This document shows, one piece after another, positions 5,047 to 64,000 of a stretch of DNA of 64,000 nucleotides. This DNA comes from Synechococcus sp. LTW-R (GTDB lineage Bacteria; Cyanobacteriota; Cyanobacteriia; PCC-6307; Cyanobiaceae). A program made the position numbers and the translations under genes. Within the stretch, counting starts at the first letter, position 1. Each line of letters begins with the position of its first letter. The notes under the pieces were generated by a model that saw nothing but the letters and a program-made list of their open reading frames with translations, ran no database searches and was not told the DNA's origin. The stretch lies in assembly GCF_014217875.1 (NCBI RefSeq), contig NZ_CP059060.1, positions 1,984,001-2,048,000 of the forward strand, read 5' to 3'.

Positions 5047-5532
5047 CTATTGATCGAGGAGGCTGCGCAGCATCCAGGCGGTTTTCTCGTGGATCTGCAG
5101 CCGTTGGGTCAGCAGGTCTGCGGTCGGTTCATCACTGGCGGCATCGGCCAGCGGGAAGATGCTGCGCGCGGTCCTGGCAACGGACTCATGGCCGCTGACC
5201 AGCAGCCGGACCATCTCTAGGGCGGGGGGCTGCTGGGGCGCTTCGGCAATCGAGGCCAGTTGGCCCAGGGCCGTGCCGCCATGGGGCGCGACGACCCCCA
5301 GGGCACGGATGCGCTCGGCGATGACATCCAGGGCGGTCCAGAGCTCCGTGTACTGGTCCATGAACATCAGGTGGAGCGTGTTGAACATCGGCCCCGTGAC
5401 GTTCCAGTGGAAGCCGTGGGTGTTGCCGTAAAGGACGTAGGTGTCCGCGAGCAGGCGGCTCAGGCCCTCAGCGATCTCCTGCCGCTGGGCTTCAGGGATG
5501 CCGATGTCGATGCTGGGCATGGTGCTGGCCAT
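5047..5532 (-). CDS. dps: Dps-family ferritin-like DNA-binding/iron storage protein
   Basis: The 161-residue protein is a single four-helix Dps domain. [11 protein letters not shown] and [21 protein letters not shown]-type helices carry the His and Asp/Glu residues of the inter-subunit ferroxidase site. Dps dodecamers oxidise ferrous iron with peroxide and protect DNA during oxidative or nutrient stress, which fits a photosynthetic host. It stands between pyrG and a sigma-factor gene, all on the minus strand, with 38 bases to the sigma stop. Whether this form binds DNA cannot be told from the short N-terminus. Confidence 0.9.
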
Positions 5533-5570: not shown

Positions 5571-6719
5571 TCAGCCGCTGGGAGCGCTGTCTCCGTCGAT
5601 GTTCAGCAAGTAGTCGTGCACCCGGCAGCGGCGCTGGGGTTGCCGCAGTTTCAGGAGGGCCCGGGTTTCGATCTGACGGACCCGCTCGCGGGAGAGGTGC
5701 AGGTCTTCGCCGATCTGGGAGAGGGTCTGGGGGGTGTCGTTCTCCAGGCCGAAGCGCAGGCGGATCACCTCGGCTTCACGGCCGCTGAGTTCCTCCAGGA
5801 GGGCTTCGAGGTCGTCGTGCAGTTGGGTCTTTGTGAGGGCCTGTTCGGGGGTGGCGTGGCCGTCCTCCAGCAGTTCCCCCAGCTCGGTGTCCATGTCGCG
5901 GCCCACCCGGGTGTCGAGGGAGACCGAGCGCGGCACCCGCATCAGGGTCATGCGGATCACCTCTTCGCTTAGGCCCAGTTCCTTAGAGAGGTCGGCGACG
6001 GAGGCCAGGCGGCCGTGTTCGCTGGCGATTTGCCGTTGGGCTTTTTTGATGCGGTTGAGCTTCTCGGTGACGTGGACCGGCAGGCGGATCGTGCGGCTTT
6101 GCGTCGCGATCGCCCGGGTGATCCCCTGGCGAATCCACCAGTAGGCGTAGGTGCTGAAGCGGAAGCCCCGGGTGGGGTCGTATTTCTCCACGGCCCGCTC
6201 GAGGCCGAGGGTGCCCTCTTGCACCAGGTCCAGCAGCTCCATGCCCCGTTGCTGGTACTTCTTGGCGACGGCCACCACCAGGCGCAGGTTGGCCTGAATC
6301 ATCCGGTCCCTGGCCCGCCGCCCTTGGTGCAGGGCTTGCTTGAGCTCACCACTGCTCAACGCCGAGAGGCGTGCCCAAGCCGCGTGGCCGGCCTTGAGGG
6401 CTTCTTTCAGGTCAGCGCCGCTGCGTTGTTGGTGCTCGGACCACAGCTGCAGGCTGGGCCAGTGCCCCAGATGGGAGGCCAGCTGCTGGCGGCTGTGCTC
6501 CAGGTCCACCAGGGCCTGCAGCTCCTTGGATTGCTTGGCGAGGGTCCGGCGCTCCTGCAGCAGTTGCTCTCGGCGCTGGACCAGGCGAGCCAGGGTGAGC
6601 TCCTCCTCGTGGCTGAGCAGGTCAACGCGACCGATGTCCTGCAGGTAGAGGCGCACCAGATCACTGCTGCCGCGCTTGCTGCCGGAGTGTGCTGGTGGAC
6701 GGGGAGGACATTTGGCCAT
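5571..6719 (-). CDS. Group 2 RNA polymerase sigma factor (sigma-70 family)
   Basis: The 382-residue protein has region 1.2 ([21 protein letters not shown]), region 2 with the core-binding and -10 recognition helices ([20 protein letters not shown]), region 3, and region 4 with the -35 recognition helix ([20 protein letters not shown]). It lacks the long acidic 1.1 region of a primary sigma factor. The YLQDIGR signature is typical of cyanobacterial group 2 sigma factors used under stress, light or nutrient change. Which group member (SigB/C/D/E type) it is cannot be decided from sequence alone. A short palindrome lies just upstream of the start. Confidence 0.9.
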
Positions 6720-6811: not shown

Positions 6812-8635
6812 TCAGTCCTCTTCGTCCACCCAGGTGCTGGCCACATGCAGCTCCTGCAGCTGCTTCTCGGCCACACCGCCGGGGGCGTTGGTCATCAGGC
6901 AGCGTGCCTGCTGGGTCTTGGGGAAGGCGATGGTGTCGCGGATCGACTCCTCGCCCGCCAGCAGCATCACCATCCGGTCCAGGCCAAAGGCCAAGCCGCC
7001 GTGCGGCGGGGCGCCCATGTCGAGGGCTTCCATCAGGAAGCCGAACTGGGCATTGGCTTCTTCGAGGGGCAGGCCCACGGTTTCCAACACCTGGCGCTGC
7101 AGCGCCGAGTCGTGGATGCGCAGGGAGCCGCCGCCGAGCTCAAGGCCGTTGAGCACCAGGTCATAGGCCTGGGCGCGGGCCCCGGGCAGGGTCTGGGCCC
7201 ACTGGCTGGCATCGCTGCCCAAATCATCCGTATTGGGGGCGCAGAAGGGATGGTGCAGCGCCTCGTAGCGGTTCTCGTCCGCGTTGAACTCGAACATTGG
7301 GAAATCCACCACCCAGAGGAAGTTCCAGCTGTCGTTCTCGCCGTCGGCTTTGACCATGCCCAGTTCCCGGGCCAGGTACTGGCGCACGCGGTCCAGGGCC
7401 TTGTTCACGGTGGCGGTGTCGCCCGCACCAAACAGGATCAAGGTGCCGGGCTTGGCGCCGGTGCGCTCGAGCAGTTCGGCCTTCTTCTCGTCGCTGAGGT
7501 TGTCCTTGATGGCACCGATCGTGTCGATCTCGCCGCCTTCGCGGACCCGGATGAAGGCCAGACCACCGGCCCCCGCTTTTTGCGCTTCGCTGAAGACGTC
7601 CCCGCCGGGCTTGATGCGCACGTTGGAGACGGCGTCATTGCCGCCAGGGACGGCGATGCATTTGACCGAGCCGCCGGAGGCCACGGCGCCGCTGAAGACC
7701 TTGAAGCCCATGTCGGCCACGAGGTCGCTGACGTTCACCAGCTCCATGCCGTAGCGGGTGTCGGGGCGATCGGTGCCATAGCGCTCCATGGCGTCGTGCC
7801 AGGTCAGCCGCGGGAAGGGGCGGGGCAGATCAATGCCTTTCACGCTCTTCCAGATGGCCGTGATCAGGGATTCATTGAGCTCCAGGATCTGCTCTTGATC
7901 CATGAAGCTCATCTCCATGTCCAGCTGGGTGAATTCCGGCTGGCGATCGGCCCGCAGGTCCTCATCGCGGAAGCAGCGCGCCACTTGGTAGTAGCGCTCG
8001 ATGCCGCCCACCATCAGCAACTGCTTGAACAGCTGAGGGGATTGGGGCAGGGCAAACCACTCGCCGCCGCAGACACGGCTGGGGAGGATGTAGTCGCGGG
8101 CGCCCTCAGGGGTGGAGCGGGTCAGGACCGGGGTTTCCACCTCGATGAAGCCCTGCTCTTCGAGGAAGCGGCGCGCCGCCTGGATGGTCTGGGCCCGCAA
8201 CCTCAGGTTGCTGTTCATGCGCTCGCGGCGCAGGTCCAGGTAGCGGTGGCGCAGCCGCAGCTCTTCGCGGGTGTTCTCCTCGTCGTGCACCGAGACCGCG
8301 AAGGGCAGGTTGCCCTTGACGCTGTTCAGGACGGTGATGGCGCTGGCCAGCACCTCGATTTGGCCGGTGGGGAGCTTGTCGTTGATCGCATCGGCGGGGC
8401 GCTCGCGCACCTTCCCTTCCACCTGGATGACGGTCTCGTTGCGGAGATGTTCCGCCACGGCGAACATCTCGGCGCCGTTGTCGGGGTCGACGGTGATCTG
8501 AACGGTGCCGCTGCGGTCGCGCAGGTCGATGAAGATCACACCGCCGTGGTCACGGCTGCGGTCCACCCAGCCGCACAGCTGCACAGCCTGGCCGGTGGCG
8601 CTCTGACGCAGGTCGCCGCATCCGTGGCTGCGCAT
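6812..8635 (-). CDS. aspS: Aspartyl-tRNA synthetase
   Basis: This class II synthetase charges tRNA-Asp. It has 607 residues, the size of the bacterial type with an inserted GAD domain. The N-terminal OB fold ([20 protein letters not shown]) binds the anticodon, motif 2 contains the [18 protein letters not shown]-type loop, and motif 3 ends in [14 protein letters not shown]. It may be discriminating or act also on tRNA-Asn; the window has no evidence on that. It stands alone between the sigma gene and gcvT. Confidence 0.97.
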
Positions 8636-15329: not shown

Positions 15330-15401
<72 letters not shown>

Positions 15402-19503: not shown

Positions 19504-20126
19504 TGGAGCTGATCGCCCGCTACAGCAACCCTGGTTTTGAGGCCCTCTCCGATGGGGTGATGGCCTTCTTTGATCGTCGCGAGGACCTGCAGCGCCCTGG
19601 GGTGGCGTTTGGGCCCGATGGAGCTGAGCCCGCCAAGGTCTCGACCGATATCAGCCTGGTGGCGATCGACCGCTCGGACCCCGAGGCCTTCGCCTTGGCG
19701 GAGGTGATCCTGAGGGGGGTGACGGCTGGCCTGGAGCGCTACCTGCAGGAGCGGCAGCTGTTCCGCGACTGTTGCCCGGATCAGGAGCTCTTCGTCAATC
19801 CGATCTTCAACCTGCAGCGCTATGCCCCCGGTGAGGGCTTCAAGCGCTGGCATTGCGACTGGACCATTAGCGATGAGGCCACCGAGCCGGTGCACCGCGT
19901 CTTGGCCTGGATCTTGTACTGCAACAGCGTTGAGGAGGCCGGCACCGAGTTCCACTGGCAGGGGCACCACGAAGAGGCCCAGCGCGGCAAGCTCGTTTTG
20001 TTTCCCGCCGGGCCCTCCCACATTCACCGCGGCCGGGTGAATCAGAGCGAGAGCAAAACCATCGCCACCGGTTGGATCAACGCCGGCAGCCGCGAGGCCT
20101 ATCTCAAACGCCTGGCGGCGGGCTAA
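19503..20126 (+). CDS. 2-oxoglutarate/Fe(II)-dependent oxygenase (prolyl-4-hydroxylase-like)
   Basis: The 207-residue protein has a double-stranded beta-helix core. His117 and Asp119 in RWHCDW form the HXD iron motif, His175 in SHIHRGRV is the likely distal ligand, and Lys185 in SKTIATGWIN is placed to bind 2-oxoglutarate. LQRYAPGEGF before the HXD matches prolyl 4-hydroxylase-like proteins. The target, a protein or small molecule, is not known. It is translationally coupled to the preceding hypothetical gene. Confidence 0.82.
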   Translation: MELIARYSNPGFEALSDGVMAFFDRREDLQRPGVAFGPDGAEPAKVSTDISLVAIDRSDPEAFALAEVILRGVTAGLERYLQERQLFRDCCPDQELFVNPIFNLQRYAPGEGFKRWHCDWTISDEATEPVHRVLAWILYCNSVEEAGTEFHWQGHHEEAQRGKLVLFPAGPSHIHRGRVNQSESKTIATGWINAGSREAYLKRLAAG

Positions 20127-61422: not shown

Positions 61423-61776
61423 TTATTTTTTCTGGTATTTTACAGGGCTACCTTTACGTTCCTCCTTGTACTCATCCTGCCAAGTCCATGCCATCCATCC
61501 CATACGCCTAGCTTCTTCCATTCGGAACTTTTCCCCTGTCCTCTTCCACGACATAGGACCATAGACATAAGGGTTTTTATCGAGACCAAACTGTTTCCAC
61601 CATGACTCTTTGTATGTCCTGGATGAAGGATTGCAAGTCCGACAACTCCGTTCTAGAGCTCGTTCTACCTTTTTATTGGTAAGCGTTCCATTCACCTTGG
61701 TTACTGCTCCACAGTTAGAACAGGTGATTAGGGTAAGTGCTTTGTTATCTACATAAATTTGATTAGCGGTTTTCAT
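61423..61776 (-). CDS. Orphan zinc-ribbon-like protein
   Basis: The 117-residue protein starts MKTANQIYVDNKALTLITC. Cys19-X2-Cys22 and Cys45-X2-Cys48 form a likely zinc ribbon. The rest is basic and aromatic: SWWKQFGLDKNPYVYGPMSW, then MEEARRMGWMAWTWQDEY. I do not recognise the family. The AT-rich codons differ strongly from the chromosome genes. No clear SD precedes the ATG, which follows the structured RNA region on the same strand, so it may lie on the same transcript as the RNA polymerase. Confidence 0.7.
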   Translation of the reverse strand: MKTANQIYVDNKALTLITCSNCGAVTKVNGTLTNKKVERALERSCRTCNPSSRTYKESWWKQFGLDKNPYVYGPMSWKRTGEKFRMEEARRMGWMAWTWQDEYKEERKGSPVKYQKK

Positions 61777-61832
61777 TTTTTAGATGGGTTATTCGTTAAC
61801 CATCCGCACATGGCAGATGGCACGAACCCAAG

Positions 61833-61877
61833 ACGAGTTAACGGAATCGAACCGCTATTGAGTCACCAGACACTCGT
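61833..61877 (-). ncRNA. 45-nt tRNA-like minihelix, copy 1
   Basis: On the minus strand: ACGAGTG, linker TCTGGTGACTCAAT, T-arm AGCGG-TTCGATT-CCGTT, then AACTCGT. The outer strands pair over six positions with a G-A at the seventh; the inner stem has five pairs, one a G-U. The loop is a perfect T-loop. D and anticodon arms are absent. No CCA is encoded. Confidence 0.55.
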
Positions 61878-61940
61878 TACACATTAAGTAATGGATCACC
61901 AGACTTCACTGGTTTCCTGGAGAGTGACTTCTACAGGTAG

Positions 61941-61985
61941 TGGAACTAATGGAATCGAACCATTACATAGTCACCAGACATTCCA
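61941..61985 (-). ncRNA. 45-nt tRNA-like minihelix, copy 2
   Basis: On the minus strand: TGGAATG, linker TCTGGTGACTATGT, T-arm AATGG-TTCGATT-CCATT, then AGTTCCA. It has exactly the same segment lengths as copy 1 and the same ten-base linker start. Where stem bases differ from copy 1 pairing is kept. A perfect hairpin ATTCCTA-GTGGA-TAGGAAT (61985-62003) directly precedes it. Confidence 0.55.
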
Positions 61986-62609
61986 TTCCTATCCACTAGG
62001 AATTTTCCGTACTTTGCCGCTCCCTGAAAGAGAGGACTTTTTTTATGCATGTGTCTCCGCTAGCAAGCGAAGACTTGATGGTTAACGATCAGTCACCCAT
62101 CTGATCACCGCAGGTAACCACTCCTACGGCTAGACAACCAACTGGTAATGCTCCAGTTCTTAGATCACTTGATGGTTGTTGAATCAATACATGTATTTAA
62201 TACATACATTAACCAGCTAAAGCTTGTTATGTAATTCATCAGTATCCAAGTCGTGGATCACGATGGTAGTTAATGCATGTCGAGTCATGACAATCTACTA
62301 ATACCTGGTACTGATGTAATTTCATCATGTAGAGCCAGTGTCCTCGCCACAGTCAGTGTCGAGGCTGGGGTTAATTTCAGTCATACCGTCTTTCCGTCGA
62401 GTCAGCTAGAAAGACATAGCAGTATTCCAAGACGTTATGGAACTGCTCCCAAGGCTTAACCAAACCGAACCTTTCCTACTCCACACAAGTGGCATTCAGA
62501 TCAGCTCATTTCTTTTTATGCTAGTTCGCCTCTAGCTCGGATTACGAATGTAGTCCTTTCATATACCGGGAGGTTCTATGCCAGAGAGCAGTTATACCAA
62601 TGTAAGTCG

Positions 62610-64000
62610 CTAGTTAAACATGTATTTGGACTCGTAGACTGAATCAAGTGGTTGATCACCTTGCTTCAAGCGAGCGAGAGCCTCTGCATCTACTCCTAGA
62701 TCATCTGCAAGTCTTGCTAGTGGATCACCATCAACGATAGAAACAAAACCCTCTCGGATTCTCTGCATTGCTCTATCCATGTCTTTGGGTAGGACAAGAA
62801 CGCAGTCGTGAATGACGCTCAGTGGATGCTGCCAATCCGTGAAGGCCTCCTTCAGTAGTGCAGCGTCATAACTATGAACGACCGCAGGTATGAATGAAGA
62901 AACCTCCTTTGCCTTATTCACATCCTTGGAATTCCAGTCACCAATGACAATCTTTCCGTTGTAAGTCGTGTGCACTTCCTCCGTATGGTGGTTGTACTTC
63001 ACCAAATGGATAGTGTCATTCGTTGGTGTCTTCCAAACAAGTGATTGTGAGCCTTGTTCATGTGCAGTCTTAGCCAGTTTTCGTAGCCATTCCAACGCTT
63101 GAAATGCTGCTGGGAATACCTGTTTGGTAGCACCGTGGATAAGTTCGGCAAGTTCCCACAACACAGCTTGTGTCGGCAACTCTTCCTCACGGAGATCATT
63201 TGCTTCCACTGCTTTCAGTAGTGCGTCTTCAATACTTTCCTTGAAGCGAAACTCCTTTGCTCCATAGATTGCAGTCATCACAACTGGCTTACCAACTGAT
63301 CTGAACTTGAGGTACTTGATGAGGTACTGCTGACCTTTCTTGATAGCAAGAGCTTCCGCTTTCCTAAGAACCTCCATGTATGCATCTTCTGGTGGAGCGT
63401 CAGGAGTTGATGGAGCCAGAAGATTGGTGTTCTTCATCCCTACAGGATCTCGTCTCATCCCAGAGAGTATTTGCAATCCACTAGCAGTCGAATCAACCTG
63501 CAGTGGAACACGCCAGAACTTTTCTTTCCTGGTGGTGATTACGTCATACCATTCCAAGCACAGTTGCAAGAACGTCCAAGGCTCATCGGCTTTCTTCCAT
63601 ATCTCAACAGTATCCAGTGGCTTACTACCTACCTTCTCAATGAGTTCTTTGTTATCGATAGTCCAAAGAATCCGATCTCTCTTTGAGATCCTGGTGCCTT
63701 GGTATGCAGAACCAATCGCAGCATAGATCCAGTCCATGGCTTCCTGAGTGACATTGCAGCCATCACGGAACTTAAGTAGGGACTTTTCAAAGTCAGTAGC
63801 ACCAACAGGCGCTAACCAAGACTGTTGAGAGTAGAAGCGTCCACGCCAGTCAACCCACCACGACAAATAGAAGGTCTTGTGTTTGTACTCTTCCGCCATG
63901 AGTAATGACTTTCTGGTACGTACACATTTCCGATTTTCTTCGCCGTATGCTCTATGAAGTGCTGCAGTGATAGATCTCCATTCCTTTAGTCGTTCTGGAT
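62610..64000 (-). CDS. T7-type single-subunit RNA polymerase, C-terminal half (5' end outside window)
   Basis: The frame continues without a stop beyond the Met at 63899 to the window edge, adding WRSITAALHRAYGEEN-type sequence that matches the T7 enzyme just before its YNMDWRGR segment. About 462 residues are visible. Counted from Met 63899, SWWVDWRGR is near residue 13, Asp136 lies in VPLQVDSTASG (T7 Asp537), Lys204 and Tyr212 in KPVVMTAIYGAKEF (T7 Lys631 and Tyr639), His342 in VHSYDAALLK, and Asp365 in VIHDCVLVLP (T7 Asp812). All catalytic residues are present, so the part seen is not degraded. It would transcribe phage genes from its own promoters. Confidence 0.9.
   Translation of the reverse strand, partial: PERLKEWRSITAALHRAYGEENRKCVRTRKSLLMAEEYKHKTFYLSWWVDWRGRFYSQQSWLAPVGATDFEKSLLKFRDGCNVTQEAMDWIYAAIGSAYQGTRISKRDRILWTIDNKELIEKVGSKPLDTVEIWKKADEPWTFLQLCLEWYDVITTRKEKFWRVPLQVDSTASGLQILSGMRRDPVGMKNTNLLAPSTPDAPPEDAYMEVLRKAEALAIKKGQQYLIKYLKFRSVGKPVVMTAIYGAKEFRFKESIEDALLKAVEANDLREEELPTQAVLWELAELIHGATKQVFPAAFQALEWLRKLAKTAHEQGSQSLVWKTPTNDTIHLVKYNHHTEEVHTTYNGKIVIGDWNSKDVNKAKEVSSFIPAVVHSYDAALLKEAFTDWQHPLSVIHDCVLVLPKDMDRAMQRIREGFVSIVDGDPLARLADDLGVDAEALARLKQGDQPLDSVYESKYMFN

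Follow-up and report, generated by a model that had tools for sequence, protein, structure and literature searches.

How are two short stretches of the Synechococcus sp. LTW-R genome (one contig of 2.4 Mb) to be explained which, read as RNA, resemble the acceptor stem and T-arm of a tRNA joined by a short linker? Positions given without a locus handle refer to the window, by which we mean the whole stretch of 64,000 nucleotides that was analysed. Two 45-nt acceptor-plus-T-arm copies, as described in an earlier note on this DNA, are indeed present on the minus strand, at 61833–61877 (minihelix C, whose position and pair probabilities were computed) and at 61941–61985 (minihelix B). Both have, from 5' to 3', an acceptor strand of 6 nt, a linker of 15 nt, a T-arm of 5-7-5 nt with the loop UUCGAUU, one further nucleotide and a second acceptor strand of 6 nt. 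The respective parts are ACGAGU, GUCUGGUGACUCAAU, AGCGG-UUCGAUU-CCGUU, A and ACUCGU in minihelix C, and UGGAAU, GUCUGGUGACUAUGU, AAUGG-UUCGAUU-CCAUU, A and GUUCCA in minihelix B; the linker of both begins with GUCUGGUGAC and includes CUGG. An acceptor of 7 nt, as proposed previously, is borne out for six standard pairs but not for position 7, which is a G opposite A in both copies. The compensatory changes that had been listed between C and B are all found: acceptor pair 1 is A-U in C and U-A in B, pair 2 C-G and G-C, pair 5 G-C and A-U, and pair 6 U-A and U-G, while T-stem pair 2 changes from G-U to A-U and pair 3 from C-G to U-A.

Minihelix A, a third and weaker copy with this geometry, lies at 62134–62179 on the minus strand (acceptor ACAACC, a 16-nt linker, T-arm ACUGG-AGCAUUA-CCAGU, U, acceptor GGUUGU). 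Descriptor matches to it were obtained in LTW-R itself (L001) and in L007, L008, L010, L020 and L061; its loop is AGCAUUA, and relatives have AGCAUUA, UGCAAUU or UGCAAUA. Because RNAfold favours its T-stem only in part (probability 0.36–0.66), minihelix A is no more than a probable third element of this kind. Minihelix C folded in all three contexts tried (0.55–0.99). When minihelix B was folded with 30 or 80 nt of flanking sequence, RNAfold preferred a competing pairing (mean pair probability 0.00–0.02); the predicted fold of this copy is supported by comparative evidence but not by the thermodynamic model.

The comparative evidence starts with bacterial relatives. A structural descriptor (6-bp acceptor, 12–19 nt linker, 5-bp T-stem, UUCRANN loop) with which 0.56 Mb was scanned gave five distinct matches, all in the window locus or its relatives, and none in five block-shuffled sets of the same 0.56 Mb. 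Searching 300 family genomes at the DNA level yielded matches in 11 (LTW-R included), several of them short and possibly due to chance; in phage records there were just three short matches covering 3–4% of the query. A covariance model, R1, was then built from eight copies, taken from the window and related bacterial elements. It scored minihelices C and B at 64.4 and 66.2 bits, respectively, each sequence being itself in the model, and, at E values no higher than 6e-5, located 12 places in the 400 family genomes, spread over eight of them; the next match had an E value of 0.03. The positive genomes are G000 and, with matches to minihelix B, G133, G174, G180, G186, G288, G298 and G303. Ten of the 12 places are in the model or identical to a member, the new ones being that in G288 and the second copy in G298. 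At E values up to 1, R1 matched in 155 of the 400 genomes; among the matches listed these are mostly confined to the T-arm, and they were not counted. A scan of 194 genomes of the phylum added, besides LTW-R, a place in G052 which by eye resembles a further minihelix, and one in G482 which was set aside for its resemblance to tRNA-Sec.

Across the eight model copies 95.5% of cells pair, and their covariation score of 0.669 (shuffled mean 0.241) was equalled by none of 500 shuffles. Seven of 11 pairs changed on both sides, a count reached by 9 of 500 shuffles, and 13 further pair types were seen, which 74 of 500 shuffles also reached. Standard acceptor pairs are missing in the UW140 copy (one) and in the UW105 copy (two).

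Many more copies came from viral contigs, which were scanned with the pattern CTGGTGAY-N6-11-GGTTCRATTCC, i.e. without any reference to the acceptor. At least 120 stretches gave at least 129 matches, at least 92 of them distinct and not too close to the end of a locus. Among the matches listed, 76 of 92 have at least five contiguous acceptor pairs at the expected geometry; when upstream strands were swapped between viral matches, about 16% passed the same test, a figure that still includes swaps among related matches. Some of the 16 matches without a 5-bp acceptor resemble ordinary tRNA 3' halves (L112, L116, L138, L154), and two others (L166, L167) resemble coding sequence. A search of 80 of the 120 loci with R1 returned 79 matches at E values of up to 1. 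When 49 R1 matches, 10 of them bacterial, were aligned, 95.8% of cells paired and the covariation score was 0.794, versus 0.173 after shuffling; the alignment contains nine pairs with changes on both sides, a number reached by 377 of 500 shuffles. This alignment was fitted to the structure, and the model-free acceptor count (76 of 92) is the safer figure. The earlier note would have fallen had no more copies with compensatory changes turned up; they did, both among related bacterial elements and on numerous phage contigs, and they support its suggestion of a tRNA-like acceptor-plus-T-arm mimic or processing signal with a linker GG.

A second descriptor left the linker sequence free. It was run on 128 partly overlapping viral loci (1.04 Mb) which had been chosen by the CTGGTGA pattern or by a match to model R2 and are not a random sample, and it found 34 distinct elements in addition to 44 pattern-selected ones. 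A GG lies within the first 12 nt of the linker in 33 of the 34 structure-only elements, some of which are closely related. Five shuffled sets gave 1, 1, 1, 1 and 0 matches, with a GG in one of these four. Linker length ranges from 9 to 18 nt across minihelices. In a scan that allowed stacks of 11–14 and required the GG, the outermost pair begins with a 5' purine in 39 of 48 acceptor labels, and the stack measures 12 or 13, the 1-nt gap counted, in 37 of 48, some labels being shifted forms of one family. Features of mature tRNA ends are sparse. As judged by eye, CCA follows the acceptor directly or one base later in four of the 34 structure-only tails (L128, L154, L198, L233) and in none of 85 tails of pattern matches at the same two positions; position N-1 has no preference for U, and only 42 of 76 elements have A as the discriminator, both figures depending on the assumed helix end. 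Other structured RNAs were seen in two of the viral loci: a Pistol ribozyme, another RNA-cutting element, about 0.4 kb before the minihelix (L134:3983-4047), and a Glutamine-II riboswitch match (L139:1652-1705) immediately ahead of the minihelix at 1820.

Ordinary tRNA or tmRNA genes, made unrecognizable by sequence errors, do not account for these elements. In the window, ARAGORN and Rfam called only a tRNA-Val at 15330 and none of the minihelices. ARAGORN on 36 and Rfam on 27 of the at least 120 viral loci found tRNAs elsewhere and left the minihelices uncalled, with the exception of one L107 minihelix (within 6876–6969) that ARAGORN, but not Rfam, joins into a tRNA-Met. No tmRNA was detected by ARAGORN in the window or in the 36 viral loci, and a cyano_tmRNA match in the non-coding stretch of the window comprises only the 17-nt T-arm (10.6 bits, E 4.5). 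Together with the covariation across many copies these searches are our grounds for rejecting erroneous tRNA or tmRNA genes, and the view that the copies are not ordinary tRNA genes stands for all those tested, bar the one in L107.

In LTW-R the three minihelices share a non-coding stretch of about 830 nt (61777–62609, minus strand). It holds no ORF of at least 80 aa on either strand; two of 60 and 64 aa are on the opposite strand. Adjoining it at 62610–64000 on the minus strand, and running beyond the window end, is the C-terminal part of an 822-aa ORF for a T7-like single-subunit RNA polymerase (Pfam RNA_pol, E 6.2e-46; PHROG RNA polymerase, E 2.4e-136), which is 26–29% identical to cyanophage RNA polymerases among the 40 matches listed. 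The polymerase has matches at E 1e-10 or better in 32 of 400 family genomes, LTW-R included, and in 20 of the 31 others these reach 35–56% identity, partly over short or broken stretches. With L002:6610-9078, the loci L027–L041, L045, L046, L048, L052 and L055 make up a set of chromosomal T7-like polymerase genes that extends to these 20 genomes, some of the genes being broken. Polymerase patterns used as a guide into the viral contigs matched no stretch. A tie between this polymerase clade and the minihelices is not shown because R1 gave nothing convincing on the polymerase loci tested (best E 0.21, in L032; flanks of only 1.5 kb).

Downstream of the minihelices, at 61423–61776 on the minus strand, is a small ORF of 117 aa with CxxC pairs and no assigned function. 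It has relatives in 9 of 400 family genomes, LTW-R included, and none in phage records or viral contigs; used as a guide it led to five loci in genome contigs, among them Synechococcus sp. UW105, UW140 and AG-679-B05. This small CxxC protein family adjoins minihelices in Synechococcus-type genomes, has an NPYVYGPM-like stretch and resembles HNH and endonuclease VII PHROGs only weakly. An integrase gene, assigned by PHROG and by our reading of the tyrosine type, follows about 8 kb further on (L002:14304-15752), so that the region looks, from its gene content, like an integrated element of about 10 kb. Between the ends of this putative element, the search for attachment repeats returned only one 12-nt and one 11-nt match. 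By eye, a hairpin-like stretch followed by a T-run, reminiscent of a terminator, is seen on the plus strand at 62016–62045, just before the opposite-strand minihelix B, and an A-run plus hairpin occupies the corresponding place in L014, L015, L018, L020 and L061.

The occurrence of three minihelices in a row raises the possibility that they are structural modules of one large ornate RNA in the window element, similar to GOLLD and ROOL, which, according to the accessible part of the source, are large RNAs of phages and prophages often found near tRNA genes (PMC12286853). The predicted fold of a stretch of 835 nt surpasses that of 20 shuffles (z -4.3), and this much speaks for the earlier idea of anchors within a larger RNA. 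Rfam, by contrast, reported nothing at gathering thresholds on the stretch of about 830 nt, with weak matches only at E up to 10, and the GOLLD and ROOL covariance models had no match in the sequence searched (at gathering thresholds, at E up to 10 in the window stretch and at E up to 5 in six loci). As the phage minihelices, moreover, are mostly alone in short gaps between genes, we regard such an RNA as a highly improbable explanation.

Phage copies tend to keep clear of genes, mostly lying in the gaps between same-strand ones. In a sample of 54 elements, only two minihelices lie mainly inside ORFs of at least 100 aa, whereas 71% of random positions do so; of 100 ORFs next to a minihelix, 83 are on its strand. 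The sample comprises loci with a G+C content of up to 0.5, with 22 of 76 dropped for G+C or length, and many of its loci are related cyanopodoviruses. Model R2, which as expected matched all 20 virus records that had supplied loci, revealed same-strand series of 11 minihelices in G408 (31.7 kb), nine in G409, seven in G401, five in G417 and four in G400. The weakest members of these series have E values of 0.01–0.06 and a few matches are partial; G414, with five R2 matches on both strands and partly T-arm only, was not taken for a series. Several minihelices of G408 and G400 occupy the gap from one stop codon to the following start, as in G408, where an ORF ends at 5401, the minihelix occupies 5403–5447 and the next ORF begins at 5471. 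Two G408 minihelices, at 705 and 15715, fall inside opposite-strand ORF calls, and in G409 simple ORF calls clash with many minihelices and were not relied on. Rfam calls a tRNA only a few bases beyond the minihelix in three Lactobacillus-type loci (L127, L208, L220); the minihelices there may serve that tRNA rather than mRNAs.

Complete minihelices are also present in the isolates Syn5, LBR48 and JNU_P2. That of Syn5 (19841–19884) lies between the scaffolding gene, which ends at 19754, and the major capsid gene, which starts at 20017. The model picks up no more than the T-arm in S-RIP1, ahead of the capsid gene, the remainder being present by eye; the linker of this copy (L240, about 5658–5720) carries, by eye, an inserted hairpin, and linkers may hold an extra arm. 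A full match is absent from 10 of 12 cyanopodovirus records and from all four of a further set (P-SSP7, T-arm only), and R2 has no full match in T7, lambda or T4 (T4, T-arm only). In the Lactobacillus brevis phages JNU_P2 and LBR48 the minihelix is located between a gene for a hypothetical or membrane protein, whose end it overlaps in LBR48, and the integrase gene. None of the four isolate records viewed has an RNA feature annotated at the minihelix. In cyanopodovirus-like contigs ATTGG often follows the acceptor. The Syn5-type promoter, which the part of the source available to us gives as ATTGGGCACCCGTAA (PMC3950665), was considered and rejected: with up to three mismatches it was found in only 1 of 10 loci (L243, inside Syn5). 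Upstream of the major capsid gene S-B28 (L241), S-RIP2 (L251) and MedDCM C24 (L250) have a different hairpin with a kept loop CACCTCAGAGTCGGA, in the place where S-RIP1 and L117 have the minihelix.

Both cyanopodoviruses with the element have it as a single copy ahead of the major capsid gene, an arrangement that a gene-specific role would explain equally well. Minihelices might remain uncut and act in cis, as a 3' protector of the upstream gene or as a 5' structure of the downstream gene such as the major capsid gene of Syn5-like phages. Such a function in stability or translation would agree with the junction position, exemplified by the Syn5 copy between scaffolding and capsid genes, and with the different hairpin at the corresponding place in some relatives. 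A plain hairpin would be enough for it, however, and the T-loop, the linker GG (33 of 34), the purine start and the stack of 12–13 are left unexplained; we therefore consider an uncut cis element unlikely.

Next to nothing of our confidence rests on an element acting at the DNA level, be it an attachment site in a tRNA gene or a replication or packaging signal. The copies that adjoin integrase genes in the L. brevis phages and those of the window, which are in an integrase-bearing element, could be read in this sense; the series of copies could not, and covariation including G-U pairs as well as the common strand of 83 of 100 neighbouring ORFs favour RNA. In addition, integration sites in tRNA genes keep the 3' end of the tRNA and are not known to retain a 5' acceptor strand with a short linker behind it.

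We consider it moderately probable that the minihelices are tRNA-mimic RNA processing elements between genes. Their location where one gene gives way to the next, mostly on the coding strand, suggests that the transcript is cut there. In the model that we propose, acceptor and T-stem would stack coaxially into a helix of about 12 bp capped by the T-loop, on which the GG of the linker would dock, thereby rebuilding the elbow of a tRNA without a D-stem or an anticodon arm. The tRNA elbow is recognized by RNase P and RNase Z, as far as the available portion of the source goes (PMC4810234). Host RNase P would cut at the 5' side of the acceptor, RNase Z or exonucleases would perhaps trim the 3' side, and a polycistronic phage or element transcript would thereby be cut between genes. 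The covarying fold, the kept GG, the usual stack length, the 5' purine, the junction placement and the wide spread rest on the sequence data; the elbow contact, the enzymes and the cutting are inferred without RNA data. The rarity of CCA, the lack of an N-1 U preference, the disfavoured fold of copy B and the absence of the element from most of the cyanopodovirus records searched are against a role in processing.

The same enzymes figure in a different explanation, according to which the minihelices, once cut out, are decoys that act in trans: by binding RNase P, RNase Z, the CCA-adding enzyme, EF-Tu or SmpB they would alter host RNA metabolism. The linker CUGG is like that of the tmRNA D-loop, and the T-arm is the part that weakly matches cyano_tmRNA. 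The form of the minihelix is moreover that part of tRNA which several such proteins hold, to judge from what could be consulted of the source (PMC4810234). As intergenic positions and multiple copies per record point to a role in cis, we find a decoy quite unlikely. Returning to processing between genes, it is tempting to speculate that an unnamed family of anticodon-less tRNA top halves with their own elbow serves as general gene-junction punctuation in many unrelated phages and their mobile relatives, which would hand transcript maturation over to the tRNA-processing enzymes of the host rather than use RNase III sites or separate promoters. We put forward this extension only tentatively, as a possibility well worth considering.

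The earlier note knew of no described phage element of this form. Our literature search showed none either, many subscription papers, preprints and all supplements being outside its reach, but one qualification is due. Lacto-int, a candidate motif reported in 2010 from Lactobacillales and their phages, is described in the accessible part of the report as ambiguous as an RNA and has no Rfam number (Weinberg 2010, PMC2864571). Its name points to an integrase, and the L. brevis minihelix precedes one; without a comparison of consensus sequences, and given that the report was available only in part, Lacto-int may be the Lactobacillus subset of the minihelices. Likewise, unnamed candidates of a large survey, only a portion of which was accessible, could overlap with them (PMC8040213). 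Being short and recognizable, the minihelix could enter phage annotation. It also offers natural material for asking which parts of a tRNA satisfy RNase P and RNase Z, a problem that is mostly approached with synthetic constructs, and, if our reading is true, would show how some phages cut polycistronic RNA.

Among known systems, tRNA itself shares with the minihelices the T-arm, the acceptor stem and the contact between GG and T-loop, which is inferred in our case; the minihelices lack the anticodon arm. The tRNA-like domain of tmRNA consists of an acceptor, a D-loop without D-stem, and a T-arm, with a linker CUGG. Acceptor, stemless D-loop and T-arm recur in the minihelices, whereas the tag frame, the long P2 and the pseudoknots do not. 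The t-elements of plant mitochondria are tRNA-like processing signals at gene borders, where they mark a cut site; they resemble the minihelices in fold and location and differ in belonging to organelle transcripts. The RNase III sites between T7 genes are long hairpins; they are structured intergenic cut sites of a phage with a single-subunit RNA polymerase, as the minihelices may be cut sites, but the enzyme is RNase III. Minimal RNase P substrates are laboratory constructs which, in the part of the source that was accessible, have 12 bp from the T-loop to the cut (PMC11143913) and, like the minihelices, consist of an acceptor and T-stem stack with a T-loop cap and neither D- nor anticodon arm. 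They are synthetic and have 3' residues that bind the GGU of the enzyme; the phage minihelices, by contrast, occur in nature, contain GG in the linker and for the most part encode no CCA. By analogy we propose that minihelices may work in the manner of t-elements or of minimal RNase P substrates, without claiming membership in either class in the absence of cleavage data. If this is true, phages and their relatives would possess a natural counterpart of the minimal RNase P substrates studied in vitro.
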